64,000 nucleotides of DNA from assembly GCF_020523795.1 (NCBI RefSeq), contig NZ_JAJALI010000003.1, positions 558,001 through 622,000 on the forward strand, given 5' to 3'. Shown here piece by piece: positions 11,793 through 58,700 of this stretch (position 1 is the first letter of the stretch; every line of letters begins with the position of its first letter). The notes beneath the pieces were generated by a model. It did not search any database, had not been told where the DNA came from, and saw nothing but the letters and a program-made list of their open reading frames with translations. A program made the translations under genes and the position numbers. Source of the DNA: Ancylobacter sp. Lp-2 (GTDB taxonomy: Bacteria; Pseudomonadota; Alphaproteobacteria; Rhizobiales; Xanthobacteraceae).

Positions 11793-11812
11793 GGTCGCGT
11801 CTCCGTCAGGGT

Positions 11813-41144: not shown

Positions 41145-41372
41145 TCCTCGGCGCGCCCGGTCGAAATGTCATCCCGGACGAATGAAAGCCCAACCGGGAT
41201 CACGCAGACGTCCAGGTATCCACCAGCCAGGAATCCCCCGGCTCTCCACCCCGCTCCCAACGAAGCGAAAGGGCAGCCCGTCCAAGCACTCCGGCGGGTG
41301 AAGGTTTGGAGGAACCACCATTCCTTCGCCGGCACTATAATCAAAACTTATATTATCACCATCCCGCGCAGC

Positions 41373-41394
41373 CTCTATAGCTATCCGCATAGAG
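41373..41394. promoter_or_regulatory. Inverted repeat before the sox/mgd operon
   Basis: CTCTAT-N10-ATAGAG, ending 17 bp before the first ATG of the operon and following an AT-rich stretch. The position fits an operator; the regulator is unknown, the divergent LysR protein being one candidate. Confidence 0.4.
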
Positions 41395-41411
41395 CCAGCG
41401 AGCTGCCCCGA

Positions 41412-42662
41412 ATGCGCTATTCCTTCCTGAGTGTCCTCAAGAACGGCTTCACCGGCCAGTCCGGGTGGAAACCCGCCTGGCGCGACGCCGCCCCCAAGCC
41501 CGCCTATGACGTGATCATCGTCGGCGGCGGCGGCCACGGCCTCGCCACCGCCTTCTACCTCGCCAGCGAGCACGGTATCCGCAACATCGCGGTGCTGGAG
41601 AAGGGGCATATCGGCTCCGGCAATGCCGGGCGCAACACCACGATCATCCGCTCCAACTACCTGCTGCCCGGCAACGAACCGTTCTACGAATGGTCGATGA
41701 AGCTGTGGGAAGGGCTGGAGCAGGCGCTGAACTACAACGCCATGGTCAGCCAGCGCGGCATCCTCAACCTCTACCATTCCGACGCCCAGCGCGACGCCTA
41801 TGCCCGGCGCGGCAACGCCATGCGCCTCGCCGGTGCCGACAGCGAGCTGCTGGACCGCGAGGGCGTGCGGGCGATGTACCCGTTCCTCGACTTCGACAAT
41901 GCCCGCTTCCCGATCCAGGGCGGGCTGGCGCAGCGCCGTGGCGGCACCGCCCGCCACGACGCCGTGGTGTGGGGCTATGCCCGCGCCGCCGACCAGCTCG
42001 GCGTCGACATCGTGCAGAATTGCGAAGTGACCGGCTTCCTCACCGAGGGCGACGCCATTGTCGGGGTGGAAACCTCGCGCGGTCCCATTCGCGCCGGCAA
42101 GGTCGGCCTCGCGGTGGCCGGCTCCTCTTCGCGGGTGGCCCAGCAGGCCGGTCTCCGGCTGCCGATGGAGAGCCACGTGCTGCAGGCCTTTGTCTCCGAG
42201 GGGCTGAAGCCGCTGGTCGACGGCGTCATCACCTTCGGCGCCGGGCATTTCTACATCAGCCAGTCCGACAAGGGCGGCCTCGTCTTCGGCGGCGACATCG
42301 ACGGCTACAATTCCTATGCCCAGCGCGGCAACCTCCCGGTGGTCGAGGATGTCGCCGAGAGCGGCATGGCGCTGATGCCGCGCATCGGCCGGCTGCGGCT
42401 CCTGCGCATGTGGGGCGGCATCATGGACATGTCGATGGACGGCTCGCCGATCATCGACCGCACGCCCCGGCCGGGGCTCTACCTCAATTCCGGCTGGTGC
42501 TATGGCGGCTTCAAGGCCACGCCGGCCTCGGGCTGGTGCTTCGCGCACCTGCTCGCCACCGACACCCCGCACGCGACCGGCACCGCCTTCAAGCTCGACC
42601 GCTTCCGCACCGGCCATCTCATCGACGAGAAGGGAGTCGGCGCCCAGCCGAACCTGCACTGA
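41412..42662 (+). CDS. soxB/mgdA: Sarcosine oxidase-like beta subunit (probable N-methylglutamate dehydrogenase subunit)
   Basis: A 416-residue flavoprotein. It has the N-terminal FAD motif VIIVGGGGHGLATAFYLASEHG, SGNAGRNTTIIRSNYL, the His of ARHDAVVWGYARAAD that in the sarcosine-oxidase beta subunit carries covalent FMN, and the C-terminal GGIMDMSMDGSPIID and NSGWCYGGFKATPASG. The start at 41412 gives MRYSFLSVLKNG, the normal N-terminus. It overlaps the next gene (TGATG). Four-subunit enzymes of this type demethylate sarcosine, or N-methylglutamate in the methylamine pathway; the mgs/gmaS genes nearby favour the latter. Sequence alone does not separate the two. Confidence 0.9.
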   Translation: MRYSFLSVLKNGFTGQSGWKPAWRDAAPKPAYDVIIVGGGGHGLATAFYLASEHGIRNIAVLEKGHIGSGNAGRNTTIIRSNYLLPGNEPFYEWSMKLWEGLEQALNYNAMVSQRGILNLYHSDAQRDAYARRGNAMRLAGADSELLDREGVRAMYPFLDFDNARFPIQGGLAQRRGGTARHDAVVWGYARAADQLGVDIVQNCEVTGFLTEGDAIVGVETSRGPIRAGKVGLAVAGSSSRVAQQAGLRLPMESHVLQAFVSEGLKPLVDGVITFGAGHFYISQSDKGGLVFGGDIDGYNSYAQRGNLPVVEDVAESGMALMPRIGRLRLLRMWGGIMDMSMDGSPIIDRTPRPGLYLNSGWCYGGFKATPASGWCFAHLLATDTPHATGTAFKLDRFRTGHLIDEKGVGAQPNLH

Positions 42663-42925
42663 TGCGCATCCCCTGTCCCTATTGCGGCGCGCGCGACGCC
42701 AGCGAATTCGCCTATCTCGGCGACGCGACCCTCACCCGTCCCGATCCGGCGGCGCCGGACGCGGACGAGGCGTTCCACGCCTATGTCTATCTGCGCGACA
42801 ACCCGGCCGGGGCGCATTCGGAATGGTGGTACCATTCCGCCGGCTGCCGCCGCTGGGTGAAGGTGGCGCGCGACACCACCAGCCACGCCATCGCCGGCGC
42901 CGAACTGGCGGGAGGCGCCCGATGA
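42662..42925 (+). CDS. soxD/mgdB: Sarcosine oxidase-like delta subunit
   Basis: An 87-residue zinc subunit. Cys5, Cys8, His58 and Cys62 match, shifted by one, the zinc ligands of the heterotetrameric sarcosine oxidase delta subunit. WWYHSAGCRRW and the C-terminal VARDTTSH are typical. It overlaps the beta gene by one base and the alpha gene by four, so the stoichiometric subunits are translationally coupled. Confidence 0.92.
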   Translation: MRIPCPYCGARDASEFAYLGDATLTRPDPAAPDADEAFHAYVYLRDNPAGAHSEWWYHSAGCRRWVKVARDTTSHAIAGAELAGGAR

Positions 42926-45894
42926 GCCGCCTCCCCTCCGGCGGCCGCGTCGACCGCGCGCGCTCGCTCTCCTTCCGCTTCGACGGCAAGACCTATCGGG
43001 GCTTTTCCGGCGATACCCTCGCCTCGGCGCTGCTCGCCAACCAGGTGCGCCTGGTCGGCCGCTCGTTCAAATATCACAGGCCGCGCGGCATCCTCTCGGC
43101 CGGGCCGGAGGAGCCGAACGCGCTGGTCGAGCTGCGCTCCGGCGCGCGCCGCGAGCCGAACACCCGCGCCACCGTCGCCGAGCTGTATGACGGCCTCGAC
43201 GCCGCCAGCCAGAACCGCTGGCCCTCGCTGGCGCTGGACGCGCTGAGCCTCAACGGGCTGGTCGCGCCGTTCCTCGGCGCAGGCTTCTACTACAAGACCT
43301 TCATGTGGCCGGCGAAGTTCTGGGAGAGCGTCTACGAGCCGGCGATCCGCCGCGCCGCCGGCCTCGGCCGCGCCGCTGAGGGCGTGGATCCCGACCATTA
43401 CGACAAGGCCCATGCCTTCTGCGACGTGCTCGTCATCGGCGCCGGCCCGGCGGGCCTGATGGCGGCGCTGGCCGCCGGCCGTGCGGGAGCCCGAGTCATT
43501 CTCGCCGACGAGGACTTCCTGGCCGGCGGCCGCCTCAACTCGGAGGTCGCCCGCATCGGCGACGAGCCGAGCCACGCCTTCGCGGCGCGTACGGTGGCCG
43601 AGCTGGCGAGCCTGCCCAATGTGCGGATCATGACCCGCACCAGCGTGTTCGGCATCTATGACGGCGAATATGGCGCGGTGGAGCGGGTGTCCGACCATCT
43701 CGCCACCCCGGCGCCGTTCCAGCCGCGCCAGCGCCTGTGGAAGATCGCCGCCAAGCGCGCCATCCTGTGCGCCGGCGCCACCGAGCGGCCGATCGTGTTC
43801 GGCGGCAACGACCGGCCGGGCGTGATGCTCGCCGGCTCCGCCCGCAGCTACGCCAATCGCTACGGCGTCGCCGCCGGCAAGAGCGTCGCGTTCTTCGCCA
43901 ACAACGATTCCGCCTGGACCTCGGCCTTCGACATGAAGGCGGCCGGCGTCAACGTCACCACGCTGATCGACATCCGCCGCGAGGTCGCCCCGGCGCTGGC
44001 CGCACGGGCGAAGGCGCTCGGCATCGACGTGCGGACCGACACGCAGGTGACCGGCACCACCGGCCAGCCGATCGGCGGCGCGCTGACCGGCCTTGCCATC
44101 CGCACCGGCGGGCGCGGCGGGCGCCTCGCCGCCGACACCCTCGCCATGTCCGGCGGCTGGTCGCCGAGCGTCCACCTCACCTGCCATCACGGCGGCAAGC
44201 CGGTGTGGCAGGAGGACATCGCCGCCTTCGTGCCGGGCCGCACGCCGCCGGGACTGAGCGTCGCCGGCGCGGCGCGCGGCACCTATGGGCTCGGCGACAC
44301 CCTCGCGGAGGGCGCGCGCCAGGGCAGCGAGGCGGCTGGCGATCTCGGCTTCACGGCCACCCGCCCCGACCTGCCGGCCACCGAGGACACCCCGGCCGGC
44401 ATCACCGCCTTCTGGCATGTGCAGGGCTCCAAGGGACCGGCCTTCGTCGACCAGCAGAACGACGTCACCGCCAAGGATCTCGGCATCGCCTACAAGGAAG
44501 GCTTCCGCGCGGTGGAGCTGATGAAGCGCTACACCACGCTGGGCATGGCGACCGACCAGGGCCGCACCTCCAACGTCAACGGCCTCGCCATCATGGCGGA
44601 GCTGACGGGTGCGAGCATCATGGAGACCGGCACTACCATCTTCCGCCCGCCCTATACGCCGGTGTCGCTCGGCGTGCTCGGCGGCCACCATCGCGGCAAG
44701 GACTTCCGCCCCACCCGCCTCACTCCGACCCATGCCTGGGCGGCCGAGCAGGGCGCGGTGTTCATCGAGACCGGGCCGTGGCTGCGGGCGCAGTATTTCC
44801 CCAAGGCCGGCGAGACCGATTGGCTCACCACGGTGAACCGCGAGGTGAAGGCGGTGCGCGCCTCGGTGGGGATGATCGACGTCTCGACCTTCGGCAAGAT
44901 CGACCTGCAGGGCCGCGATGTCGGTGCCTTCCTCGACAAGGTGTACATCAACACCTTCTCGACGCTGGCGGTCGGCAAGGCGCGCTACGGCGTGATGCTG
45001 CGCGAGGACGGCATCGTCATGGACGACGGCACCACCGCGCGCCTCGGACCCGAGCACTATGTGATGACCACCACCACGGCGAATGCCGTCAAGGTGTTCC
45101 AGCATCTCGAATTCTGCCTGCAGGTGCTGTGGCCGGAGCTCGACGTGACGCTGGCCTCGGTCTCCGAGCAATGGGCGCAGATCGCCATCGCCGGCCCTCG
45201 CGCGCGGGACGTGCTGGCGCGGGTGGTCGATACCGGCGTCGACGTCTCCAATGAGGGGCTGCCCTTCATGGGCGCCATCGAGCGCACGGTGATGGGCGGG
45301 GTGAAGGCACGGCTGTTCCGCCTCTCCTTCTCCGGCGAGCTCGGCTACGAGATCGCGGTGCCGGCCCGCCATGGCGAGGCGCTGGCTCGCGCGCTGATGA
45401 CGGCCGGCGAGGAGTTCGGCATCACCCCCTATGGCATCGAGGCGCTCGGCGTGATGCGCATCGAGAAGGGGCATGTCTCCGGCAACGAGCTGTCCGGCCA
45501 GACCAGCGCCGGCGATCTCGGCTTCGGCAAGATGGCCTCGACCAAGAAGGACTATATCGGCCGCGTCATGGCGGCGCGGCCCGGGCTCAAAGATCCCGAC
45601 CGGCCGGCCTTCGTCGGCTTCAAGCCGGTCGATCCGTCGCAGCGGCTGCGGGCGGGGGCGCATTTCCTCACCATCGGCGCGCCGGCGGACATGGCGCACG
45701 ATCAGGGCTACATGACCTCGGTGGCGCATTCGCCGCATCTCGGCCACTGGATCGGCCTCGGCCTGTTGAAGAACGGGCCGGCCCGCATCGGCGAGCGCGT
45801 GCGCGCCTATGACCCGGTGCGCGGCAATGATTTCGAGGTCGAGGTCTGCTCGCCCGCCTTCATCGACCCGAACGGGGAGCGGCTGCGTGGCTGA
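42922..45894 (+). CDS. soxA/mgdC: Sarcosine oxidase-like alpha subunit
   Basis: A 990-residue multidomain subunit. In order: an N-terminal 2Fe-2S-ferredoxin-like domain (GKTYRGFSGDTLASALLAN, KYHRPRGI), a dinucleotide-binding disulfide-oxidoreductase-like domain (LVIGAGPAGLMAALAAGRAG) that binds NAD+, and from about residue 610 an aminomethyltransferase (GcvT-like) domain with MIDVSTFGKIDLQG and GELGYEIAVPARHG. The last part passes the methyl carbon from the substrate to tetrahydrofolate as methylene-THF. The start at 42922 overlaps the delta stop. FolD and PurU downstream can process the product. Confidence 0.93.
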   Translation: MSRLPSGGRVDRARSLSFRFDGKTYRGFSGDTLASALLANQVRLVGRSFKYHRPRGILSAGPEEPNALVELRSGARREPNTRATVAELYDGLDAASQNRWPSLALDALSLNGLVAPFLGAGFYYKTFMWPAKFWESVYEPAIRRAAGLGRAAEGVDPDHYDKAHAFCDVLVIGAGPAGLMAALAAGRAGARVILADEDFLAGGRLNSEVARIGDEPSHAFAARTVAELASLPNVRIMTRTSVFGIYDGEYGAVERVSDHLATPAPFQPRQRLWKIAAKRAILCAGATERPIVFGGNDRPGVMLAGSARSYANRYGVAAGKSVAFFANNDSAWTSAFDMKAAGVNVTTLIDIRREVAPALAARAKALGIDVRTDTQVTGTTGQPIGGALTGLAIRTGGRGGRLAADTLAMSGGWSPSVHLTCHHGGKPVWQEDIAAFVPGRTPPGLSVAGAARGTYGLGDTLAEGARQGSEAAGDLGFTATRPDLPATEDTPAGITAFWHVQGSKGPAFVDQQNDVTAKDLGIAYKEGFRAVELMKRYTTLGMATDQGRTSNVNGLAIMAELTGASIMETGTTIFRPPYTPVSLGVLGGHHRGKDFRPTRLTPTHAWAAEQGAVFIETGPWLRAQYFPKAGETDWLTTVNREVKAVRASVGMIDVSTFGKIDLQGRDVGAFLDKVYINTFSTLAVGKARYGVMLREDGIVMDDGTTARLGPEHYVMTTTTANAVKVFQHLEFCLQVLWPELDVTLASVSEQWAQIAIAGPRARDVLARVVDTGVDVSNEGLPFMGAIERTVMGGVKARLFRLSFSGELGYEIAVPARHGEALARALMTAGEEFGITPYGIEALGVMRIEKGHVSGNELSGQTSAGDLGFGKMASTKKDYIGRVMAARPGLKDPDRPAFVGFKPVDPSQRLRAGAHFLTIGAPADMAHDQGYMTSVAHSPHLGHWIGLGLLKNGPARIGERVRAYDPVRGNDFEVEVCSPAFIDPNGERLRG

Positions 45895-45930
45895 TCGTCT
45901 CCCTTTCCCACCCGCAGGAAGGCTCGCCCG

Positions 45931-46527
45931 ATGACCTCCGCGCTCAACACATTCCCGGTCACGCAGATGCCGGCGGACGGTCGTTACGGCCCGGCCGGCA
46001 CCCAGGGCGTCAGCGTCCGCGTCTTCGATCCGCCGGCGCTCGCCCTGCTCGCCGCCCGTCGCGGCGGCGCCTCCGCGCTGACCGTGGCCGCGCATGCCAC
46101 GCTCGGCCTCGCGCTCGCCGACACGCCGCGCCTCACCCGCGCCAATGGCCTCGCCACCATCGGCGCCGGCCCCGGCCGTTGGCTGGTGCTGGCCGAGGCG
46201 CCGGAGGACCTCGCCGCCCGCCTCGCCCCGCTCGCCGCCCACGCCGCCATCACCGAGCAGACCGATGGCTATGTCGGCTTCGAGCTCTCCGGCGCGCGGA
46301 CGCGCGACCTGCTCGCCAAGGGCGTGACGGTTGACCTCGATCCGGCGGCCTTCCCGCCCGGAGCGGCGGCGACCACCAATGTCGCCCATATCAACGTCAC
46401 CTTCTGGCGCGAGCCGGGCGACGAGCGCTTCGGGTTCCTGGTGGCACGCAGCTACCGCGTCGCCTTCGCCCGCTTCCTGATCGCCTCCGGCGCCGAATAT
46501 GGGATCGCCTTCGCCCATCGAGGTTGA
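45931..46527 (+). CDS. soxG/mgdD: Sarcosine oxidase-like gamma subunit
   Basis: A 198-residue GcvT-fold-related gamma subunit. It contains [35 protein letters not shown] and late [22 protein letters not shown], matching SoxG length and pattern. It lies 36 bp after the alpha gene and 124 bp before purU. It completes the four-subunit complex. Confidence 0.9.
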
Positions 46528-46651
46528 CCGCGGCGCGAAGCGCGCTTCCCTCAAAGCCGCATCTCCCCTAAAACCGCGCCGAACCGCCTCGCCCCGGACC
46601 GCCGACACGCGCGGGCCCGGGCGAGGCAGGCGACCCGCCGAGAGACCCGCC

Positions 46652-47536
46652 ATGACCGACGCCACCGCCGAGACCGCCGCCGACAGCTACATCCTCACCC
46701 TCTCCTGCCCGGACCGCCCCGGCATCGTCGCCGGCGTCGCCAATTTCCTGTTCGAGCACGGTTGCAACATCCTCGAGGCGCAGCAGTTCGACGACACCGA
46801 GAGCGGCCGGTTCTTCATGCGCGTCTCCTTCGAGCGCGTGTCCGGCGAGGCGACGCTGGAGAGCCTGACGGCCGATTTCGCCGCCGTGGCCGAGACGTTC
46901 CGCTTCAGCTGGCGGCTGCGGCTGCGCAGCCAGAAGCGCAGGGTGATGCTGCTGGTGTCGAAGTTCGACCACTGCCTCGCCGACCTGCTCTATCGCTGGC
47001 GCATCGGCGAGATCCCGATGGACATCACCGCCATCGTCGCCAACTACCCGCGCGAGACCTACGCGCATCTCGATTTCGACGGTATCCCGTTCCACTATCT
47101 GCCGATCACCAAGGCGACCAAGATGGAGCAGGAAACCCAGCTCTGGGAGCTGTTCCAGAAGACCGGCTCGGAAGTCGCGGTGCTCGCCCGCTACATGCAG
47201 GTGCTGTCGGACGGGCTGTCGGCCAAGCTGTCGGGCCGCTGCATCAACATCCACCATTCGTTCCTGCCCGGCTTCAAGGGCGCCAAGCCCTATCACCAGG
47301 CGCACGCGCGGGGTGTCAAACTCATCGGCGCGACGGCGCATTTCGTCACCTCCGACCTCGACGAAGGCCCGATCATCGAGCAGGACGTCGAGCGCATCAC
47401 CCATCAGGATTCCGCCGAGGCGCTGGTCCGCAAGGGCCGCGACATCGAGCGCCGCGTACTCGCCCGCGCGCTCGCCTGGCATCTCGATGACCGGGTGCTC
47501 ACCAACGGCCACAAGACCGTGGTCTTCCGGGACTGA
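46652..47536 (+). CDS. purU: Formyltetrahydrofolate deformylase
   Basis: A 294-residue enzyme. An N-terminal ACT domain ([26 protein letters not shown]) precedes the formyl-transferase domain with [17 protein letters not shown] and [17 protein letters not shown], which hold the catalytic His and Asp. It hydrolyses 10-formyl-THF to formate and THF. In the C1 pathway it disposes of carbon released by the oxidase and regenerates THF. The start at 46652 is chosen by the ACT-domain start; the frame is open upstream across the intergenic region. Confidence 0.94.
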
Positions 47537-47568
47537 TTGTTGCGCCACTGACGCTTTACGAGGACGAC

Positions 47569-48444
47569 ATGGTCGAGACCCGCATCATCGATGGCAAGGG
47601 CTTTGCCGAGGACCTGCGCAAGCAGATCGCCGGCGAGGTCGCCGACTTCAAGGCGGCGACCGGCGTCACCCCCGGCCTCGCCGTGGTGCTGGTGGGCGAG
47701 GACCCGGCCAGCGCGGTCTATGTCCGCAACAAGGGCAAGCAGACGCTGGAGGCCGGCATGGCCTCGATCGAGCACAAGCTGCCGGCTGACGCCTCGGAGA
47801 CCGAAGTGCTGGCGCTGGTCTCCTCGCTGAACGCCGATCCGGCGGTGCACGGCATCCTCGTGCAGCTGCCGCTGCCGGGCCATATCGACGCGCAGAAGGT
47901 GCTCGCCACCATCGATCCCGCCAAGGATGTCGACGGCTTCCATGTGGTGAATGCCGGCCGGCTGGCGGTCGGGCTCGACGCGCTGGTGCCCTGCACCCCG
48001 CTCGGCTGCGTGATGCTGCTGAAGCACCACCTCGGCAACCTCGCCGGGCTGCGCGCCGTGGTGGTCGGCCGTTCCAACATCGTCGGCAAGCCGCTGGCGC
48101 AGCTGCTGCTGCGCGAGGACTGCACGGTGACCATCGCGCATTCGCGTACCCGCGACCTCGCCGAGGAATGCCGGCGCGCCGACATACTGATCGGCGCGGT
48201 CGGGCGGCCGGAGATGATCCGCGGCTCATGGATCAAGCCGGGCGCCACGGTGATCGATGTCGGCATCAACCGGGTGGAGAAGGCCGGCGGGGGAACGCGC
48301 CTCGTCGGCGACGTCGCCTTCGACGAGGCGCAGGGCATTGCCGGGCTGATCACCCCGGTGCCGGGCGGCGTCGGGCCGATGACCATCGCCTGCCTGCTGC
48401 AGAACACGCTGACCGCCGCCAAGCGGCAGTTGGCGGCCGGCTGA
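47569..48444 (+). CDS. folD: Methylene-THF dehydrogenase/methenyl-THF cyclohydrolase
   Basis: A 291-residue bifunctional FolD that converts 5,10-methylene-THF to 10-formyl-THF. Catalytic Tyr and Lys lie in [15 protein letters not shown], followed by [10 protein letters not shown], the NADP loop [18 protein letters not shown] and the C-terminal [19 protein letters not shown]. It lies 32 bp after purU. Methylene-THF from the oxidase would pass to FolD and then PurU, so gene order mirrors the flow of carbon except for the order of the last two. Confidence 0.95.
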
Positions 48445-48465
48445 CACGGGGCCGGCGCCCTCGGT

Positions 48466-49959
48466 TCAGATCGATTGCGGGAAGCTGAACAGGTTGGTCG
48501 GGTCCACCGCCGCCTTGATCCGCTCCAGCCGCGCGAGATTAGCGCCGTAATAGCGCGCGCGCCAATCGACCAGCGAGGCGTCCGGGAAATTCTGGAACGC
48601 GCCCGCGCCGCCGAAGCGGTTCACCACGCCATAGAGCGCGTCCTGCCACGCCTTGGCGGCGCGCACGACCTCCGGCCGCGCCGCGTCCTCGGCGTTCCAC
48701 ACCGCGCCGACCACGCCCAGCCAGCGGCTGTCGCGATGCACGAAGGCGGTCGCCTCCGGCAGCGTCTCGTTCATCTGCCCGCCGGTCTGGAAGAAGAACA
48801 GGCTGGCCTGCGCGCCGGTGCCCGGCCACTGGCGCAGATGCTCGGTGGCGGTTTCGAGGAATTCCTCCGACGGCGCGCTCGCGAGGAAGGCGGAGCGCTC
48901 GCGGTACCAGCCCGGCTCGCCGGGCTCCATGAGGAAATGCTGCGCCTCCCAATAGGCGAGCTCGCGCACATCGGTGAAATCCGGCACTGCCACGGCCAGC
49001 ACCGGCGCCAGCAAGGCGAGGAACTCCTCGCGCGACCCGGCATATTGCGCCAGCAGCGTGAGCGGCACCTGCCGCCCCTTTTCCGCCAGCGCCGGAGTGA
49101 CGCCGCCGAGCGCGATGCGCGAGCCGAGCACGCGCGGGCCGTCGTCCGTGCAGGCGAACAGCGCTTTCGCCGCCTCCAGCGTCTTGCCGCGCCAGACGAG
49201 GCGCGCCACCGTCAGCCGCGTATCGACCGGCTGCGTTTCCAGCGTGAACGACGTACTGACGCCGAAATTGCCGCCGCCGCCACCCCGGATCGCCCAGAAC
49301 AGGTCGGTCTCCTCGCCGCCCGACAGCGCCCGCACCCGGCCGTCGGCGGTGACGATCTCGGAGGCGACCAGCCGGTCGGCCCCGACGCCGAAGCGGCGCA
49401 TGTTGAAGCCGATGCCGCCGCCGAGCAGGAAGCCGGCGGCGCCGACGGTCGGGCAGCGGCCGTGGGTGATCATCCGCCCCGCCCCGCGCAGCGCCTCGTA
49501 GACCTGCGCATTGAGCGCGCCAGCGGCGACGCGCACCCGACCGCTCGCCGCGTCATAGGCAATGGCGTCCATCGGTGTCATGTCGAGGACGATGCCGCGG
49601 CTGGTGGAGAAGCCGGCATAGGAATGGCCGCCGCCGCGAAGGGCGAACGGCATCTCGTAATCCTGGCACCAGGCCAGCACCTCGGCGATCATCCGCGGCG
49701 TCCGGCACGGCACGACCGCCTCGGGCCGCACCGGCTCGAAGCGCAGATTGTTCGGCAGCGCCTCGGCGGCGAATTGCGGGCTCGACGGGCGCAGCAGGCC
49801 GCCCTCGGTGATGCGGGCGAGGCGATCCCAGCGATCCGGCACGACGGCGGGCGCGGCAGGCGCCGGCTGCGCCCTGAGCGGCCCGATCCCCAATGCGGTG
49901 GCGGCCGCCGCGCCGCCGACCAGCAGGCCGCGACGCGTCACCCGTGCTCTATCGCTCAT
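48466..49959 (-). CDS. Tat-exported FAD-linked oxidase with bicovalent flavin site
   Basis: A 497-residue berberine-bridge-type oxidase. VTRRGLLVGGAAAATALG at 8-25 with twin arginines indicates a Tat signal cleaved near residue 31. His112 in RGGGHSYAGFS and Cys169 in HGRCPTVGAAGFLLGGG are the two flavin attachment residues of bicovalent FAD enzymes, and the C-terminal DWRARYYGANLARLERIKAAVDP is the BBE segment. Such enzymes oxidise sugars, alkaloids or other alcohols with oxygen. It is convergent with folD and lies downstream of an MHS transporter gene. Confidence 0.88.
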   Translation of the reverse strand: MSDRARVTRRGLLVGGAAAATALGIGPLRAQPAPAAPAVVPDRWDRLARITEGGLLRPSSPQFAAEALPNNLRFEPVRPEAVVPCRTPRMIAEVLAWCQDYEMPFALRGGGHSYAGFSTSRGIVLDMTPMDAIAYDAASGRVRVAAGALNAQVYEALRGAGRMITHGRCPTVGAAGFLLGGGIGFNMRRFGVGADRLVASEIVTADGRVRALSGGEETDLFWAIRGGGGGNFGVSTSFTLETQPVDTRLTVARLVWRGKTLEAAKALFACTDDGPRVLGSRIALGGVTPALAEKGRQVPLTLLAQYAGSREEFLALLAPVLAVAVPDFTDVRELAYWEAQHFLMEPGEPGWYRERSAFLASAPSEEFLETATEHLRQWPGTGAQASLFFFQTGGQMNETLPEATAFVHRDSRWLGVVGAVWNAEDAARPEVVRAAKAWQDALYGVVNRFGGAGAFQNFPDASLVDWRARYYGANLARLERIKAAVDPTNLFSFPQSI

Positions 49960-50071
49960 GGCACCCTCCCCTCGCGCCGATATTGCCGGCGTCTTGTCCT
50001 GCGCGGTGTCTTACGCCGCCGGCGGTTTGGGAAGTGTTAGCGCCCGTCGCCCCCCCCCGCGAACGCATAGC

Positions 50072-50105
50072 AAAACGCCCGCGACGGTCCCCCGTCGCGG
50101 GCGTT
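50072..50105 (-). terminator. Strong terminator after the MHS transporter gene
   Basis: A 14-bp perfect stem AACGCCCGCGACGG-N4-CCGTCGCGGGCGTT followed on the minus strand by a T run, 21 bp past the transporter stop. It separates the transporter from the oxidase gene, so these two are not one transcript. Confidence 0.85.
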
Positions 50106-50126
50106 GCAGCCTCGAAGTCGGATCGC

Positions 50127-51479: not shown

Positions 51480-51963
51480 CGTTGAAAAGGCTCCGTGGGT
51501 GGCGCGGCCCATCGGGAGGCACGGCGCCAGACGAAAGCGCGGCGGAGCCAGCTTCGGCCCTCGCCCGCGCGCGATTGGCGCCCGTCATATACCGAGCCTG
51601 CGACGGAATGAACCGCGCTGAGCGCATGGCTTATAATTCTATGGTCGTAGAGGCGCAGACCGCGACATTTTCTTGCGCGGCGTGGAGAGGGTGCTTTCGT
51701 GCTGGGCCGCCGTCCTCCCAGGAACCCTGGTGACCCTTCCTCCCGAGATAGCGGCTCTTTCTTCCCTCTCCCCGGTGGGGAGAGGTGGCCCACGAAGCGG
51801 GTCGGTGAGGGGGGATAACATGGGAAACCGTAGAGCCCCCTCACCCCACCCCTCTCCCCCGCGGGGAGAGGGAGCCGGTCGCTCGTTAGGCAATGATCGG
51901 TCAGATGCTCGGGACGACGCTGTTGAAGGAGGAGGCGCTCAGAGCACGCGGACCATCAACCCC
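51480..51963. other. 484-bp gap upstream of the MHS transporter
   Basis: Holds a dispersed palindromic repeat (51766-51875) and, at about 51630-51640, an AT-rich TATAATTCTATGG stretch that could be promoter material for the transporter. No coding frame is supported. Confidence 0.55.
51766..51875. repeat. Dispersed palindromic repeat, copy 2
   Basis: Begins with the palindrome CCTCTCCCC-GGT-GGGGAGAGG (51766-51786) and ends in a similar one, CCTCTCCCC-CGC-GGGGAGAGG. The part from 51781 aligns with copy 1 at 41051. The terminal palindromes suggest a REP/MITE-like mobile or mobilised element. Confidence 0.85.
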
Positions 51964-53373
51964 TCACACCCGCGACAGCCGGTTCCAGGCGTCGAGGCCG
52001 GCGATCTTGTAGGCCTCGGCCAGCGTCGGGTAGTTGAAGGTGTTCTCGATGAAATAGTCGATGGTGCCCTTCAGGTTCAGCACCGCCTGGCCGATATGGA
52101 TCAGCTCGGTGGCGCCCTCGCCGACGATGTGCACGCCGAGCAGGCGGCGGGTCTTCACCGAGAAGATCATCTTCATCATGCCGGTGTTCAGCCCCATGAT
52201 GTGGCCGCGCGAGGTCTCGCGGAAGCGGGCGATGCCGCACTCATAGGGAATCTCCCGCCGGCGCACCTCCTCCTCGCTCATGCCGACCGTCGACATTTCC
52301 GGCACCGAATAGATGCCGTAAGGGAAGAATTCCGGCGGCGGCGGCGGCTCCAGCCCGAAGGCGTGGCAGGCAGCGACGCGGCCCTGCTCCATCGAGGTGG
52401 AGGCAAGGCTGGGGAAGCCGATGACGTCGCCGGCGGCATAGATGTGCGGCACCGAGGTCTGAAGCGTCTTCGGATCGACCTTGAGCCGGCCGCGATGGTC
52501 GACATCGAGCCCCGCCGCACCGAGATTGAGCGTATCGGTAGCGCCGACCCGACCGGCGGCGAAGAGCAGCATGTCGGTGGTGACGGTGCGCCCGTCGGAG
52601 AGCCGGCAGATCGGGCGGCCATCATTGCCGAGCTCGATGGCGCCGACATTGGCGCCGAGCCGCAGCGAGACGTTGCGGTCGCGCAATTCGTGCACGAACT
52701 CCTCGATCAGCTCCTTGTCGATGAAGTCGAGGAAGCTCGAGCGTGGCTCGATCAGCGTCACCTGCACGTCGAGCGCGCTGAAGATGGTGGCGTATTCGAC
52801 GCCGATCACCCCAGCGCCGATCACCGCGAGGCTGCGCGGCAGGCGCGGCAATTCGACGATCTCGTCGCTGTCGAACACGTTGGTGCCGTTGAACGGCACA
52901 TAATCCGGTCGGAACGGCCGCGTGCCGACGGCGATGAGGATGTGCGAGCCGGAGACGGTGGTGTGCTCGCCGGTCTCGCCGGTGATCTCAATGTCATAGG
53001 GCGAGACGAAGCGCGCCTCGCCGCGCGCGGTCTTCACCCCGTTGCGGCTGAACTGGTGCTCCAGCACGTCGACCTCGTGATCGAGCGTCTTGTGCAATCG
53101 CGCCAGCAGATCGGCGGCGCCGATATCCTGCTTCACCCGGTAGGAGCGGCCGTAGAAGCCGCGCTCGCGCCAGCCCGACAGGTTGAGCACCGTCTCGCGC
53201 AGCGTCTTGGAGGGGATGGTGCCGGTGTGCACGGACACGCCGCCGACCCGGCGGCCCTTCTCGACCACCAGCACCGACTTGCCGATCTTGGCGGCCTGCA
53301 CGGCGGCGCGGCGGCCGGACGGGCCGCTGCCGATGACGATCATCTCATAGTCGGTCGCCTTATGGTCAGGCAT
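51964..53373 (-). CDS. sthA: Soluble pyridine nucleotide transhydrogenase
   Basis: A 469-residue flavoprotein of the lipoamide dehydrogenase superfamily. The FAD motif MIVIGSGPSGRRAAVQAAKIG opens the chain. GVSVHTGTIPSKTLRE sits where redox-active enzymes have CxxxxC; both cysteines are absent, as in SthA. The NAD motif is LAVIGAGVIGVEYATIFSALD and the interface domain ends in the GEGATELIHIGQ region. It equilibrates NADPH and NADH. The start at 53373 (MPDHKATDYE) is chosen over the open frame upstream. It is divergent from the XRE-cupin regulator. Confidence 0.92.
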   Translation of the reverse strand: MPDHKATDYEMIVIGSGPSGRRAAVQAAKIGKSVLVVEKGRRVGGVSVHTGTIPSKTLRETVLNLSGWRERGFYGRSYRVKQDIGAADLLARLHKTLDHEVDVLEHQFSRNGVKTARGEARFVSPYDIEITGETGEHTTVSGSHILIAVGTRPFRPDYVPFNGTNVFDSDEIVELPRLPRSLAVIGAGVIGVEYATIFSALDVQVTLIEPRSSFLDFIDKELIEEFVHELRDRNVSLRLGANVGAIELGNDGRPICRLSDGRTVTTDMLLFAAGRVGATDTLNLGAAGLDVDHRGRLKVDPKTLQTSVPHIYAAGDVIGFPSLASTSMEQGRVAACHAFGLEPPPPPEFFPYGIYSVPEMSTVGMSEEEVRRREIPYECGIARFRETSRGHIMGLNTGMMKMIFSVKTRRLLGVHIVGEGATELIHIGQAVLNLKGTIDYFIENTFNYPTLAEAYKIAGLDAWNRLSRV

Positions 53374-53506
53374 GGGTCGCCGTCGCTCCTGCGGGCCTCG
53401 CTTTCTGCCCAATGCACGATGAATGCCAAGCCGGTATGACGTTCCGCGTTTCCGCCCCGACATTTCCCGGCTAAAAAAGGGCGGAGCGAGCAGGAGGAGA
53501 CGGGTC

Positions 53507-54190
53507 TTGGCAGAACAGCGGCAGCAGGCGGAGGGCACCGGCGCGAAGGAAGCGGCCGGGACGGAAGCCAGCGCGGAGGATTTGCGCACCGGCTCGGGGG
53601 CGCCGGCCACCAATGAGCGCACGCTGGAACAGGCGCTCGGCCTGCAGGTACGCGCCATCCGCCGCGAGCTCGACCTCACCGTCTCCGATCTCGCCAGCGC
53701 TGCCGGAATCTCCGTCGGCATGCTCTCGAAGATCGAGAACGGACTGATCTCGCCGTCGCTCGGCACGCTGCAAGCCATCTCCAGCGTGCTCAACGTGCCG
53801 ATCTCCAGCCTGTTCTCCGGCTTCGAGGAAAAGCGCGACTGCTCCTTCGTGCCCGCCGGCCAGGGCGTGCATATCGAGCGGCGCGGCACCAAGGTCGGGC
53901 ACCAGTACGAACTGCTCGGCCACGCGCTCGGCGGCGAGGTGGCGGTGGAGCCCTATCTCATCACCCTGAGCGAGGAAGCGGTGCCCTATACCGGCTTCCG
54001 CCATGCCGGGGTGGAGTTCATCCACATGCTCACCGGCGAGGTGGTGTACCGCCACGGCGACCGCACCTATCACCTGCGGCCAGGCGATTCGCTGATGTTC
54101 GATTCAGCCGCCACCCACGGGCCGGAGGAGCTGCTGGTGCGGCCGATGACCTATCTGTCGATCATCATCTACCCGCGCGATCCGATCTGA
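53507..54190 (+). CDS. XRE-family regulator with cupin sensor domain
   Basis: A 227-residue regulator. The helix-turn-helix (ALGLQVRAIRRELDLTVSDLASAAGISVGMLSKIENG region) follows a low-complexity N-terminus, and the C-terminal cupin contains HRHAGVEFIHMLTG-like GFRHAGVEFIHMLTGEV and PGDSLMFDSAATHGPEEL. A TTG start at 53507 is chosen because AGGAGG lies 9 nt before it; an ATG at 53423 is the alternative. It lies 127 bp upstream of the mgsA-type gene on the same strand, with a TTTTCC/GGAAAA palindrome between them, so it is the likely regulator of the mgs-gmaS operon. The cupin may sense a small amine or amino acid. Confidence 0.83.
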   Translation: MAEQRQQAEGTGAKEAAGTEASAEDLRTGSGAPATNERTLEQALGLQVRAIRRELDLTVSDLASAAGISVGMLSKIENGLISPSLGTLQAISSVLNVPISSLFSGFEEKRDCSFVPAGQGVHIERRGTKVGHQYELLGHALGGEVAVEPYLITLSEEAVPYTGFRHAGVEFIHMLTGEVVYRHGDRTYHLRPGDSLMFDSAATHGPEELLVRPMTYLSIIIYPRDPI

Positions 54191-54215
54191 CCGCCACCGC
54201 CTCCCACCTCTGAAC

Positions 54216-54232
54216 TTTTCCTAACAGGAAAA
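54216..54232. promoter_or_regulatory. Candidate operator of the XRE-cupin regulator
   Basis: Perfect inverted repeat TTTTCC-N5-GGAAAA in the 127-bp gap before the mgsA-type gene, followed by the AT-rich TTTTATT. I did not find a second good match before the regulator or the sox/mgd operon. Confidence 0.5.
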
Positions 54233-54317
54233 TTTTATTCCCCCACATTGACGCCACACCGCGTTGCCCGTACATCTCGCTCACGAACAACCGAGATGGT
54301 TTGCAGGAGACGCGCGG

Positions 54318-55199
54318 ATGTGCGGAATTGTCGGCCTCTTCATCAAGGACCCGAAGCTGGAACCCCAGCTCGGCGCCCTGCTGGCGGAAATGCTGGACGT
54401 GATGTGCGACCGCGGGCCGGATTCGGCCGGCTTCGCCGTCTATGGCAGCGGCAAGGACGGCACGGTGAAGCTCACCCTGCGCGGCCCGGCTGGCACCGAC
54501 TTCGCCGCCATCGGCGCGGCGCTCGGCCATGAGGTGGCGCCGCGCGACACCCATGCGGTGCTCACCGTCCCCGCCGCCGCCGAAGCGGATGTGCGCACGG
54601 CGCTCAAGAGCCGGTTCCCGGCGATCGACGTGATCAGCACCGGCGCCCGCATGGAGCTCTACAAGGAAGTCGGCCTGCCCGCCGACGTCGCCAAGCGCTT
54701 CAAGCTGGAGACGATGAGCGGCACCCATGCCATCGGCCATACCCGTATGGCGACCGAGAGCGCGGTGACCACCGACGGCGCCCACCCCTTCTCCACCGGC
54801 GCCGACCAGTGCCTGGTGCATAACGGCTCGCTGTCGAACCATGCCGGCCTGCGCCGCCGGCTGGAGCGCGAGGGCCTCCACCTCGCCACCGAGAACGACA
54901 GCGAGGTCGCCGCCGCGTACCTCACCTACCGCATGCGCGAGGGCGACACGCTCGGCGAGGCGCTGGAGCATTCGCTCGGCGATCTCGACGGCTTCTACAC
55001 CTTCGTCGTCGGCACCGAGAGCGGCTTCGGCGTGCTGCGCGACCCCATCGCCTGCAAGCCGGCCGTCATGGCCGAAACCGATCAATATGTCGCCTTCGGC
55101 TCGGAATACCGCGCGCTCGCCGGCCTGCCGGGCATCGAGAACGCCCGCGTCTTCGAGCCGGAGCCGGCCAAGGTTTATTTCTGGGACCGCGCAGCATGA
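54318..55199 (+). CDS. mgsA/glxB: Class II glutamine amidotransferase, N-methylglutamate synthase subunit A / GlxB
   Basis: A 293-residue glutamine amidotransferase domain. The catalytic Cys is residue 2 (MCGIVGLF), with RGPDSAGFAVYG, HTRMATESAVTTDGAHPFS and VHNGSLSNHAGLRRRL as in the GltB N-terminal domain. It corresponds to the first of three genes into which glutamate synthase is split in glxBCD/mgsABC systems. The start is fixed by the need for Cys at position 2. It overlaps the next gene by 4 bp. Confidence 0.88.
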   Translation: MCGIVGLFIKDPKLEPQLGALLAEMLDVMCDRGPDSAGFAVYGSGKDGTVKLTLRGPAGTDFAAIGAALGHEVAPRDTHAVLTVPAAAEADVRTALKSRFPAIDVISTGARMELYKEVGLPADVAKRFKLETMSGTHAIGHTRMATESAVTTDGAHPFSTGADQCLVHNGSLSNHAGLRRRLEREGLHLATENDSEVAAAYLTYRMREGDTLGEALEHSLGDLDGFYTFVVGTESGFGVLRDPIACKPAVMAETDQYVAFGSEYRALAGLPGIENARVFEPEPAKVYFWDRAA

Positions 55200-55924
55200 C
55201 CCTTTCCGTGAAGCCTGCCGGCGACGCCGCCGGCCTCCAGCTGGTCGACCTCTCGACCTCCAGCGTGCGCGAGCTCAACGCCGCGCTACACGCCCTCGGC
55301 CCCGACACCAACCAGACCCTCTGGAAGGTGGCGCACCCCAATGGCCGGCACGCCATCGCCGCCGGCCTCGATGCCGCCATCGACATCGAGATCGACGGGC
55401 CGGTCGGCTATTACTGCGCCGGCATGAACAAGCACGGCCGCGTCGTCATCAACGGCAATGCCGGCGTCGGCGTCGGCGAGAACATGATGTCGGGCTTCAT
55501 CCATGTGAAGGGCGACGCCAGCCAGTCGGCCGGCGCCACCGCCCATGGCGGCCTCCTCGTCATCGACGGCAACGCCTCGGCGCGCTGCGGCATCTCGATG
55601 AAGGGCATCGACATCGTGGTGAAGGGCTCGGTCGGCCATCTCTCGGCCTTCATGGGACAGGCGGGCTCGCTCGTCGTGCTCGGCGACGCCGGCGAGGCGC
55701 TCGGCGACAGCCTCTACGAGGCCAAACTGTTCGTGCGCGGCAAGGTCGCCGGCCTCGGTGCCGACTGCATCGAGAAGGAGATCCGCGACGAGCACAAGGC
55801 GCTGCTGGCCTCGAAGCTCGACGCCGCCGGCATCCTCGGCGAGGTCGATATCGGCGAGTTCCGCCGCTACGGCTCGGCCCGCACGCTCTATCATTTCCAC
55901 GTCGACAACGTGTCGAGCTACTGA
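55196..55924 (+). CDS. mgsB/glxC: Glutamate synthase GXGXG-domain protein, N-methylglutamate synthase subunit B / GlxC
   Basis: A 242-residue stand-alone GXGXG beta-helix domain, equivalent to the C-terminal structural domain of GltB. Repeated Gly motifs are seen in GPVGYYCAGMNKHGRVVING, NAGVGVGENMMSG and GSVGHLSAFMGQAG. It is coupled to mgsA by an ATGA overlap and lies 11 bp before mgsC. Confidence 0.88.
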   Translation: MTLSVKPAGDAAGLQLVDLSTSSVRELNAALHALGPDTNQTLWKVAHPNGRHAIAAGLDAAIDIEIDGPVGYYCAGMNKHGRVVINGNAGVGVGENMMSGFIHVKGDASQSAGATAHGGLLVIDGNASARCGISMKGIDIVVKGSVGHLSAFMGQAGSLVVLGDAGEALGDSLYEAKLFVRGKVAGLGADCIEKEIRDEHKALLASKLDAAGILGEVDIGEFRRYGSARTLYHFHVDNVSSY

Positions 55925-55935
55925 GGGGCGGGACC

Positions 55936-57273
55936 ATGAACGATCTCACCAACACCCCGCGCACCAAGCCCCGTACCTCGGCGACCTTCGACGAGTACAC
56001 GCTGTCGGAAATCCGCCGCGCGGCGGCGACAGGCATCTACGACATTCGCGGCGCCGGCGCGAAGCGCAAGCTGCCGCATTTCGACGACCTCCTGTTCCTC
56101 GGCGCGTCGATGTCGCGCTACCCGCTGGAAGGCTATCGCGAGAAGTGCTCGACCGAAGTCGTCCTCGGCACCCGCTTCGCCAAGAAGCCGATCGAGCTGA
56201 AGATCCCGATCACCATCGCCGGCATGAGCTTCGGCTCGCTCTCCGCCAACGCCAAGGAAGCGCTGGGGCGCGGCGCCTCGGCGATGGGCACCTCGACCAC
56301 CACCGGCGACGGCGGCATGACCAATGAGGAGCGCGGGCACTCCACCCAGCTCGTCTACCAGTATCTGCCCTCGCGCTACGGCATGAACCCGGATGATCTC
56401 AAGCGCGCCGACGCCATCGAGGTGGTGGTCGGCCAGGGCGCCAAGCCCGGCGGCGGCGGCATGCTGCTCGGCCAGAAGATCACCGAGCGCGTCGCCGGCA
56501 TGCGCACCCTGCCCGTCGGCATCGACCAGCGCTCCGCCTGCCGTCACCCCGACTGGACCGGGCCGGACGACCTCGAGATCAAGATCGAGGAACTGCGCGA
56601 GATCACCGACTGGGAGAAGCCGATCTATGTGAAGGTCGGTGCGGCGCGGCCCTATTACGACACCGCGCTCGCCGTGAAGTCCGGTGCCGACGTCGTCGTC
56701 GTCGACGGCATGCAGGGCGGCACCGCCGCCACGCAGGAGATCTTCATCGAGCATGTCGGCATCCCGACGCTGGCGGCGGTCCGCCAGGCAGTGAAGGCGC
56801 TGCAGGACCTCGGCATGCACCGCAAGGTGCAGCTGATCGTCTCCGGTGGCATCCGCAACGGCGCCGACGTCGCCAAGGCTCTGGCGCTCGGCGCCGACGC
56901 GGTGGCGATCGGCACGGCGGCACTGGTGGCGCTCGGCGACAACGACCCGCACTGGCAGGGCGAGTACGAGAAGCTCGGCACCACCGCCGGCGCCTATGAC
57001 GACTGGCACGAGGGCCGCGATCCGGCGGGCATCACCACGCAGGACCCGGCGCTGATGGCGCGGCTCGACCCGGTCGCCGCCGGCCGCCGCCTCGCCAACT
57101 ATCTCGCGGTGCTGACGCTGGAGTGCCAGACCATCGCCCGCGCCTGCGGCAAGAGCCATGTGCACAACCTCGAGCCGGAGGATCTCGTCGCGCTGACCAT
57201 CGAGGCGGCGGCGATGGCGAATGTGCCGCTGGCCGGCACCAACTGGATCCCGGGCAGCAACGGGAATTTCTGA
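55936..57273 (+). CDS. mgsC/glxD: FMN-binding glutamate synthase domain, N-methylglutamate synthase subunit C / GlxD
   Basis: A 445-residue protein equal to the central FMN domain of GltB. It shows PITIAGMSFGSLSANAKEALGRGA, GDGGMTNEERG, GQGAKPGGGGMLLGQK, VKVGAARPYYDTALAVKSGAD, DGMQGGTAATQEIF and GGIRNGADVAKALALGADAVAIGTAAL, the phosphate loop for FMN. The start at 55936 begins MNDLTNTPRTKPR. In the methylamine route the MgsABC complex makes N-methylglutamate from glutamate and methylamine released from gamma-glutamylmethylamide. A UUCG hairpin separates it from the following gene. Confidence 0.9.
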   Translation: MNDLTNTPRTKPRTSATFDEYTLSEIRRAAATGIYDIRGAGAKRKLPHFDDLLFLGASMSRYPLEGYREKCSTEVVLGTRFAKKPIELKIPITIAGMSFGSLSANAKEALGRGASAMGTSTTTGDGGMTNEERGHSTQLVYQYLPSRYGMNPDDLKRADAIEVVVGQGAKPGGGGMLLGQKITERVAGMRTLPVGIDQRSACRHPDWTGPDDLEIKIEELREITDWEKPIYVKVGAARPYYDTALAVKSGADVVVVDGMQGGTAATQEIFIEHVGIPTLAAVRQAVKALQDLGMHRKVQLIVSGGIRNGADVAKALALGADAVAIGTAALVALGDNDPHWQGEYEKLGTTAGAYDDWHEGRDPAGITTQDPALMARLDPVAAGRRLANYLAVLTLECQTIARACGKSHVHNLEPEDLVALTIEAAAMANVPLAGTNWIPGSNGNF

Positions 57274-57277
57274 CCAG

Positions 57278-57299
57278 ATGCCGCGCTTCGGCGCGGCAT
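57278..57299 (+). terminator. UUCG-capped hairpin between mgsC and gmaS
   Basis: A 9-bp stem ATGCCGCGC-TTCG-GCGCGGCAT right after the mgsC stop, in a 104-bp gap. It has no real T run, so it is more likely an mRNA-stabilising or partial attenuator hairpin than a full stop. Confidence 0.5.
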
Positions 57300-57377
57300 T
57301 TGCACATTCATCGCCTCAACGAGCCCTCAACGGGCCGGGGAACGGCACGAACACCGATTGCAGCAGGACCGCTTCAG

Positions 57378-58679
57378 ATGGCCAATGATCTTGCCCATGC
57401 CGCCAAAGAGCTCGGCATCAAGTATTTCCTGATCTCCTATGTCGACCTTTTCGGCTCCCTGCGCGCCAAGCTGGTGCCGGCTCAGGCGATCGGCGGCATG
57501 CAGAAGTCCGGCGCGGGTTTCGCCGGCTTCGCCACCTGGCTCGACATGAGCCCGGCCGACGCCGACCTGTTCGCCGTGCCGGACGCCGACAGCCTGATCC
57601 AGCTGCCGTGGAAGCCGGAAGTCGGCTGGCTGGCCTCAGATCTCGTCATGAACGACGAGCTGGTGGCGCAGGCGCCGCGCAACGTGCTGAAGAGCACCAT
57701 GCTGGGTGCCGAATCCATCGGCTACCAGATGAAGACCGGCGTCGAGTGCGAGTTCTTCCTGACCACGCCGGACGGCAAGAAGATCTCCGACGCCTCCGAC
57801 GACGCCACCAAGCCCTGCTACGACCAGTCCGCCCTGATGCGCCGCTACGAGGTGATCAAGGAAATCTGCGACTGCATGCTCACCCTCGGCTGGGGCCCGT
57901 ACCAGAACGACCACGAGGACGCCAACGGCCAGTTCGAGATGAACTGGGACTTCGACGACGCGCTGGTCACCGCCGACCGCCACGTCTTCTTCAAGTACAT
58001 GGCGCGCTCCATCGCCGAGAAGCACGGCCTGCGCGCGACCTTCATGCCCAAGCCCTTCATCGACCTCACCGGCTCGGGCTGCCACATGCACACCTCGCTG
58101 TGGCAGGGCGACACCAACCTGTTCGAGGACGAGGACGGCGAGCTCGGCGTCTCCGACCTCTGCTACAACTTCATCGGCGGCCTGATCCACTCGGCCGACG
58201 CGATGTGCGCCTTCACCAATCCGACGGTGAACTCCTACAAGCGCATCAACGCGCCGCGCACCGTCTCCGGCGCCACCTGGGCGCCCAACACCGTCACCTA
58301 TACCGGCAACAACCGCACCCACATGATCCGCATCCCCGATGCGGGGCGGCTGGAGCTGCGGCTGCCGGACGGCGCGGCCAACCCCTATCTCGCCCCGGCG
58401 GCGGTGCTGGCGGCCGGCCTCGACGGCATCCAGAACCAGCGCGATCCCGGCAAGCGGCTCGACATCAACATGTACACCGACGGCCACAAGGTGCGCGGCG
58501 CCAAGAAGCTGCCGCTGAACCTGCTCGACGCCCTGCGCGCGCTGGAGAAGTCGAACGTGCTGAAGAACGCGCTCGGCGCCCCGGTGGTCGACGGCTTCCT
58601 CAAGCTGAAGCACGAGGAATGGAACGCCTATTCGCGCCACCTGACGGAATGGGAACGCGCCAACACGCTGGATATCTGA
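57378..58679 (+). CDS. gmaS/glnT: Gamma-glutamylmethylamide synthetase / type III glutamine synthetase-like
   Basis: A 433-residue glutamine synthetase-superfamily enzyme. The beta-grasp N-terminus (SYVDLFGSLRAKLVPAQAIGG) and the catalytic domain with GVECEFFL, NGQFEMNWDFDDAL, GSGCHMHTSLW, NNRTHMIRIP and RLELRLPDGAANPYLAPAA are intact. It follows mgsABC/glxBCD, the arrangement in which GmaS joins methylamine to glutamate using ATP. GlnT of rhizobia has the same neighbours and is a close relative, so a glutamine synthetase role remains possible. The sox/mgd operon in the window favours the methylamine pathway. Confidence 0.87.
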   Translation: MANDLAHAAKELGIKYFLISYVDLFGSLRAKLVPAQAIGGMQKSGAGFAGFATWLDMSPADADLFAVPDADSLIQLPWKPEVGWLASDLVMNDELVAQAPRNVLKSTMLGAESIGYQMKTGVECEFFLTTPDGKKISDASDDATKPCYDQSALMRRYEVIKEICDCMLTLGWGPYQNDHEDANGQFEMNWDFDDALVTADRHVFFKYMARSIAEKHGLRATFMPKPFIDLTGSGCHMHTSLWQGDTNLFEDEDGELGVSDLCYNFIGGLIHSADAMCAFTNPTVNSYKRINAPRTVSGATWAPNTVTYTGNNRTHMIRIPDAGRLELRLPDGAANPYLAPAAVLAAGLDGIQNQRDPGKRLDINMYTDGHKVRGAKKLPLNLLDALRALEKSNVLKNALGAPVVDGFLKLKHEEWNAYSRHLTEWERANTLDI

Positions 58680-58700
58680 GCGTCGGAAGACAGAACAGCC

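Follow-up and report, generated by a model that had tools for sequence, protein, structure and literature searches.

The N-methylglutamate (NMG) pathway of methylamine use is well known and ordinary, and the labels given to its genes are misleading. Methylobacterium extorquens DM4 and PA1, as described in the excerpted text of PMC6237917, possess the three enzymes considered here, with mgdABCD adjacent to and divergent from mgsABC-gmaS; introduction of the DM4 mgsABC-gmaS genes into Pseudomonas putida led to formation of N-methylglutamate. Non-methylotrophs use the pathway for nitrogen (excerpt of PMC5023228), and PMC9800807 (excerpt) lists GmaS, MgsABC, MgdABCD, FolD, and PurU side by side for Aminobacter sp. 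MET. We analyzed a stretch of 64,000 nucleotides listed as Ancylobacter sp. Lp-2 (hereafter the window; G+C content, 70%), in which genes named after sarcosine oxidase and GlnT/GlxBCD very probably encode, as judged from sequence, the NMG pathway of an Ancylobacter-like alphaproteobacterium. This reading draws on the families to which the proteins belong, their placement in trees, the GmaS residues, synteny, and the finding of genes for formate dehydrogenase and RuBisCO.

We infer the reactions and fluxes from established knowledge of the families. GmaS would ligate methylamine to glutamate at the expense of ATP, MgsABC would convert gamma-glutamylmethylamide to N-methylglutamate, and MgdABCD would oxidize the latter back to glutamate while passing the methyl carbon to tetrahydrofolate (THF) as methylene-THF, from which FolD and PurU would produce formate. 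SthA might, as a guess, turn the NADPH of FolD into NADH.

The initial annotation of the window had described two plus-strand blocks separated by about 5 kb with three minus-strand genes, and had read them as an NMG pathway hidden under other names. Profile matches and reading frames that are intact throughout confirmed both blocks. In block 1 (41412–48444), PurU and FolD come after the four subunits (beta, delta, alpha, and gamma) of a SoxBDAG-type enzyme; block 2 (53507–58679) starts with an XRE-cupin regulator and ends with a GlnT-type ligase, and between these it encodes amidotransferase-like, GXGXG-like, and FMN-binding glutamate-synthase-like subunits. The gap was likewise as described, with genes for an FAD-linked oxidase, an MHS symporter, and SthA. 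Beta, alpha, PurU, FolD, the ligase, and SthA exceeded curated cut-offs; the gamma, MgsA/B/C-type, and regulator genes did not exceed their own, and were assigned from weaker profile matches and synteny (Table 1). Because curated cut-offs were exceeded and the gene order recurs in relatives, the gene set is beyond chance. GmaS-, MgsABC-, and MgdABCD-type genes are all present, which supports the proposed pathway, and annotated plasmid clusters indeed use "glnT", "glxC", and "sarcosine oxidase" for such genes.

Phylogeny and key residues of the ligase and the oxidase

Among solved structures, the window ligase was closest to the GmaS of Rhodovulum sp. 12E13 (RhGmaS, 7cql; 648 bits in phmmer), which belongs to another order than the host, followed by 9qur (336 bits); the best glutamine synthetase scored 234 bits and the others less. 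In RhGmaS, Ala and Trp occupy the positions at which glutamine synthetase has an Asp in the ammonia site and a Glu in the flap, and K30, D177, E186, and R312 have roles in substrate binding or catalysis (excerpt of PMC7948447). The window ligase keeps all six residues (K30, A48, D177, E186, W300, and R312), having Ala and Trp where glutamine synthetase has Asp and Glu, and these residues count against an ordinary glutamine synthetase. All six were kept in 58 of 65 aligned rows (window and 7cql included). The other seven rows were matches of 26–31% identity; three of them are the host genome's own other glutamine-synthetase-like genes, and one of these three, L010, shows the Asp and Glu typical of glutamine synthetase. 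The controls L011 and L012 aligned badly and were left unused. In the tree that the initial annotation had called for (34 rows), the window ligase grouped with crystallized RhGmaS and apart from glutamine synthetase, and a branch with support of 100/99 set these two off from glutamine synthetase as well as from 9qur, which clustered with proteins of Cupriavidus, Paraburkholderia, and Acinetobacter; one row (ownGS_L013) is a wrongly picked long reading frame and carries no meaning. GmaS activity of the window protein is thus predicted.

Three separate glutamate-synthase-like subunits adjoin gmaS, as in MgsABC. The window MgsC was 85–88% identical to Methylobacterium and Azospirillum homologues that adjoin gmaS. 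In the Methylobacterium loci (L022, L039, and L092), identities to the window were 85–86% for MgsC, 72–75% for GmaS, and 61–63% for alpha. The published MgsC threshold (>81%; excerpt of PMC5023228) is defined against M. extorquens PA1, and our comparison was with these other Methylobacterium loci. An Ancylobacter rudongensis protein is already listed as an MgsB homologue (80%; excerpt of PMC6237917).

The host genome holds two full-length alpha genes, the window copy and one on contig C34, which are 50% identical. A quick LG+G4 tree of 58 hand-picked alphas out of 138 collected, which carries a long-branch warning for L206, L207, and the third lineage, resolved three lineages and two stray rows. 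The window alpha fell in a clade of 36 rows (SH-aLRT 98): for 26 of these the locus includes gmaS or mgsC, 9 are unlabelled, and 1 (L090) has a glyA/sdaA neighbour. The sarcosine-oxidase clade (15 rows, support 97) included crystallized 2gag and the C34 copy, and glyA/sdaA occurred in 10 of its 15 loci; the third lineage comprised five deep rows, two of them adjoining gmaS. The initial annotation had proposed placing alpha among characterized MgdC and SoxA proteins: the separation from sarcosine oxidase stood, and on the other side loci linked to gmaS or mgsC took the place of biochemically characterized MgdC.

The heterotetrameric sarcosine oxidases 2gag and 1vrq have the same four-subunit architecture as the window enzyme. 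In an alignment of 137 beta rows numbered after sarcosine oxidase, the equivalents of His and Lys358, which we take to be the FMN link and an important residue of sarcosine oxidase, respectively, were invariant, window included. Position 354, in contrast, was Thr in all 14 sarcosine-oxidase rows but Tyr in the window, in all 116 window-side rows, and in both stray rows; the window thus lacks Thr354, the mark of sarcosine oxidase derived here. The window-side rows form a default set, namely those listed under neither the sarcosine-oxidase clade nor the third lineage nor the stray rows; 44 of them have gmaS/mgsC in the fetched locus and 72 do not. Most lie outside the alpha tree, with a lowest alpha identity to the window of 54% among their loci, and the 116 are distinct strings that include 18 short-flank copies (L151–L174), several from genomes already represented. 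Tyr/Thr354 might influence substrate choice or may mark ancestry alone; literature on the active site around Lys358 offered nothing useful among the matches listed, so a role for this position is one that we infer.

The alpha clade and beta Tyr354 support the earlier reading of the oxidase as N-methylglutamate dehydrogenase. By phylogeny and context, MgdABCD would be distinct from sarcosine oxidase, and the C34 SoxBDAG set, the nearer relative of 2gag and 1vrq, would be the true sarcosine oxidase. It is very improbable, instead, that block 1 encodes a true sarcosine oxidase with folate-linked one-carbon oxidation, as in betaine or choline breakdown, and block 2 an unrelated extra nitrogen-assimilation set (GlnT/GlxBCD). 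NCBI profile names agree with that alternative, soxBDAG-purU-folD would also suit sarcosine breakdown, and purU lies near an alpha of the sarcosine-oxidase clade in L025 and L203. However, the alpha tree and beta Tyr join the window to the gmaS-linked set, the C34 copy fills the place of sarcosine oxidase, and the GmaS residues argue against ordinary glutamine synthetase. Moreover, glyA and sdaA had no match in the 64 kb window, compared with the 10 of 15 sarcosine-oxidase-clade loci; they had none in the 18 kb stretch of the C34 copy either.

Gene order and distribution among relatives

The host (5.59 Mb in 34 contigs) is probably, by sequence, Ancylobacter-like (Xanthobacteraceae). Three Ancylobacter species gave the best alpha matches (74–78%) among the 80 named-record loci kept, and A. 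rudongensis and A. lacus were among the same-genus genomes in the alpha tree. Among the loci fetched and examined, 12 from the genus, window included, contained both blocks. In all 12, the interval from folD to mgsA holds sthA and the XRE gene; the symporter was found in the gap of 3 and the FAD oxidase in that of 5, the window being counted in each case. In the host genome sthA had a single match at E ≤ 1e-60. Two other genomes had the blocks on separate contigs (G120) or a contig ending short of the other block (G084), and the locus of Ancylobacter tetraedralis (L033) yielded no mgsABC-gmaS.

Outside the genus, the two blocks are adjacent on Sphingobium, Azospirillum, Aminobacter, and Thioclava plasmids. 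Plasmid pSH1 of Sphingobium xenophagum (L027) is colinear with the window (alpha-gamma-purU-folD-XRE-glxB-glxC-glxD-glnT; beta and delta are outside the fetched stretch), but its folD is followed by the XRE gene without sthA, symporter, or FAD oxidase. Gene orders differ in the related clusters of, among others, Azospirillum, Aminobacter, Thioclava, and Rhizobium. Since sthA is constant in 12 of 12 loci and the Sphingobium order is free of the gap, the split is an insertion or rearrangement common to the genus, in which sthA is the invariable component. The window also differs from M. extorquens in that its mgd genes share a strand with purU-folD, and sthA and variable genes stand between the blocks. 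In one further locus (L148, G189), alpha (9527–12486, minus strand) is called as two pieces with a change of reading frame at their junction, which may reflect a frameshift or a split of the gene.

At E ≤ 1e-120, GmaS was detected in all 30 genus genomes and in 54 of 198 family genomes, and an alpha of at least 58% identity in 57 of the 198. Both occurred in 50 family genomes, GmaS alone in 4, alpha alone in 7, and neither in 137; these sets were compiled by hand from search listings, gene fragments included. That the two blocks are chance neighbours and not one functional unit is extremely improbable. The 5 kb and three opposite-strand genes between them would fit such an arrangement, as would the separate contigs of G120 and the A. 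tetraedralis locus, but the order is the same in all 12 two-block loci of the genus, the blocks adjoin each other on plasmids of the four other genera, and 50 of the 61 family genomes with either gene have both.

Points against the pathway and the methylated-amine context

Several observations weigh against an NMG pathway in the window. The window gamma scored under the NCBI soxG cut-off (71 vs. 144 bits), as did the C34 gamma (132 vs. 144). Beta position 354 is Thr in five of five third-lineage rows, although this lineage adjoins mgsABC-gmaS in two genomes. The C34 alpha, which is of the sarcosine-oxidase type, also exceeds the published mgdC threshold (>35% identity; excerpt of PMC5023228), so this threshold is not decisive. 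Similarly, alphas of 46–53% identity (sarcosine-oxidase type) occur in 39 of the 198 family genomes, 35 of which have GmaS (35 of the 54 GmaS genomes); co-occurrence alone therefore discriminates neither alpha type. N-methylglutamate also formed in P. putida with mgsABC alone, at a level 2.5 times lower (excerpt of PMC6237917), so the requirement for GmaS is not absolute. Finally, Ancylobacter novellus, as Starkeya novella, is given as negative for methylamine in the growth-substrate table of PMC3570799, which makes carbon use doubtful in the genus.

The same table gives A. novellus as negative on trimethylamine and ethylamine. Together with the use of the pathway for nitrogen in non-methylotrophs, it favours the view that the NMG machinery serves another small primary amine (e.g., ethylamine), or nitrogen supply alone, rather than methylamine carbon. 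We consider this unlikely, as the genome holds enzymes that would lead towards methylamine and others to handle its carbon (FolD, PurU, formate dehydrogenase, and RuBisCO). Contig C3 encodes trimethylamine monooxygenase (Tmm; 822 bits, cut-off 675) and trimethylamine N-oxide (TMAO) demethylase (Tdm; 1242 bits, cut-off 1100), with an aminomethyltransferase and a Fer2 protein nearby, the DmmA-like match being slightly under the Pfam cut-off. Formate dehydrogenase (968 bits, cut-off 666) and RuBisCO genes are also present. Because of Tmm, TMAO demethylase, formate dehydrogenase, and RuBisCO, a chain from trimethylamine through methylamine and formate to CO2 is plausible in the host on gene content; the dimethylamine step is its weakest link. 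Methylamine dehydrogenase (PF02975) had no match in the genome, and controls were equally silent, so its absence is not shown. As a side observation, positions 5000–24000 of contig C3 (L016) form an upstream methylated-amine cluster in which a DMGDH-like gene accompanies those for Tmm, TMAO demethylase, the aminomethyltransferase, and the Fer2/DmmA-like protein.

Regulatory candidates, a third oxidase lineage, and implications

A common operator was sought ahead of both blocks, and two distinct conserved boxes were found instead of a single motif. The box upstream of mgdA was nearly invariant in 13 aligned loci, with L130 and L032 deviating; in the region of the mgsA dyad, TTTC...GAAAA and TTGAC were invariant in 12 aligned loci. 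The XRE-cupin protein would regulate both blocks. The sigma-54-like element of sthA was largely kept in 13 aligned upstream regions, with changes in a few of them, and could bring the transhydrogenase under nitrogen-linked control. Separately, a leader of gmaS (approximately 57318–57378, plus strand; core CGGGCCGGGGAAC) was strongly conserved in 11 aligned loci. Rfam gave five matches up to E 1 in positions 41000–59000, all under the gathering score. An actinobacterial host, which the 70% G+C and a match to the RamB profile had suggested, was rejected: the closest matches were from Ancylobacter, and the RamB-profile match belongs to the general ScfR family.

Table 1. Genes and candidate control elements of the two blocks and the gap in the window.
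Feature	Position	Strand	Basis
AT-rich box, putative operator/promoter upstream of mgdA	41344–41357	+	AAACTTATATTATC, sole copy in window; 54 bases 5' of mgdA
Beta, mgdA-like (annotated soxB)	41412–42662	+	TIGR01373, 688 bits (cut-off 529)
Delta, mgdB-like (soxD)	42662–42925	+	CPYCG...HSAGC in translation; in relatives, homologues flanked by beta and alpha
Alpha, mgdC-like (soxA)	42922–45894	+	TIGR01372, 1390 bits (cut-off 1164); tree
Gamma, mgdD-like (soxG)	45931–46527	+	TIGR01375, 71 bits (below cut-off 144); Pfam SoxG, 36 bits (above cut-off 21)
purU, formyl-THF deformylase	46652–47536	+	TIGR00655, 343 bits (cut-off 286); start inferred, ATG and frame checked
folD, methylene-THF dehydrogenase/cyclohydrolase	47569–48444	+	PRK14188, 486 bits (cut-off 396)
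FAD-linked oxidase (gap)	48466–49959	-	NF041226, 134 bits (under cut-off); variable between relatives
MHS-family metabolite/H+ symporter (gap)	50127–51512	-	TIGR00883, 424 bits (slightly under cut-off 443); variable between relatives
sthA, soluble NAD(P)+ transhydrogenase (gap)	51964–53373	-	PRK05249, 648 bits (cut-off 465); constant in gap
Sigma-54-like -24/-12 element upstream of sthA (predicted)	53412–53428	-	TGGCATTCATCGTGCAT, one match in window
XRE-cupin transcriptional regulator	53507–54190	+	PuuR profile, 45 bits (under cut-off); start uncertain; homologue at block in relatives
TTTTCCT-AAC-AGGAAAA dyad, putative operator upstream of mgsA	54216–54232	+	One match
mgsA-like amidotransferase subunit (glxB)	54318–55199	+	N-terminus MCGIVG; class-II amidotransferase profiles under cut-off; synteny
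mgsB-like GXGXG subunit (glxC)	55196–55924	+	TIGR03122, 66 bits (under cut-off); synteny with annotated glxC
mgsC-like FMN-binding glutamate-synthase subunit (glxD)	55936–57273	+	Glutamate synthase large-subunit profile, 119 bits (under cut-off)
gmaS, gamma-glutamylmethylamide synthetase (annotated glnT type)	57378–58679	+	TIGR03105, 676 bits (cut-off 470); 7cql match; residues; tree

The third alpha lineage was found in different settings. In both G139 (L195:7227–14826) and G106 (L196:7305–14862), an alpha-type mgsABC-gmaS cluster adjoins a SoxBDAG-family set with an alpha 36–38% identical to that of the window; this deep SoxBDAG set replaces the usual dehydrogenase. An Acinetobacter plasmid (L030) has a third-lineage alpha in the tree and a GmaS 41% identical to that of the window, and a second Acinetobacter stretch (L218), with an alpha 79% identical to that of L030, also has glnT and glxC. 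We tentatively raise the possibility, to which we give somewhat less than even credence, that N-methylglutamate dehydrogenase arose more than once in the SoxBDAG family: as an alphaproteobacterial Tyr354 type, to which the window would belong, and as a deeper Thr type (five rows read), which is carried with GmaS on Acinetobacter plasmids and, in at least two host relatives, has been exchanged into alpha-type mgsABC-gmaS clusters.

Rhodobacteraceae (L087:1–5639, minus strand; also L088 and L091) have a second, divergent set of GmaS-like (29–30%) and MgsABC-like (32–53%) genes. In L087 and L088 its neighbour is a gene for a soxB-like FAD oxidase, in L087 also one for a GntR-type regulator, with the canonical beta-delta-alpha genes of the oxidase alongside. 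Possibly, the set follows the same logic for another amine.

Together, the clade split and beta Tyr/Thr offer a simple computational way to distinguish the alphaproteobacterial dehydrogenase from sarcosine oxidase, with the caveat that the third lineage violates the rule. It could be tried on SAR11, for which the excerpted text of PMC3160333 leaves unclear which of two operons is the dehydrogenase; if the dehydrogenase does have more than one origin, the Tyr/Thr position might separate the two four-gene operons in alphaproteobacteria such as SAR11. For the host itself, automatic annotation would overlook a methylamine route and credit the organism with two sarcosine oxidases.

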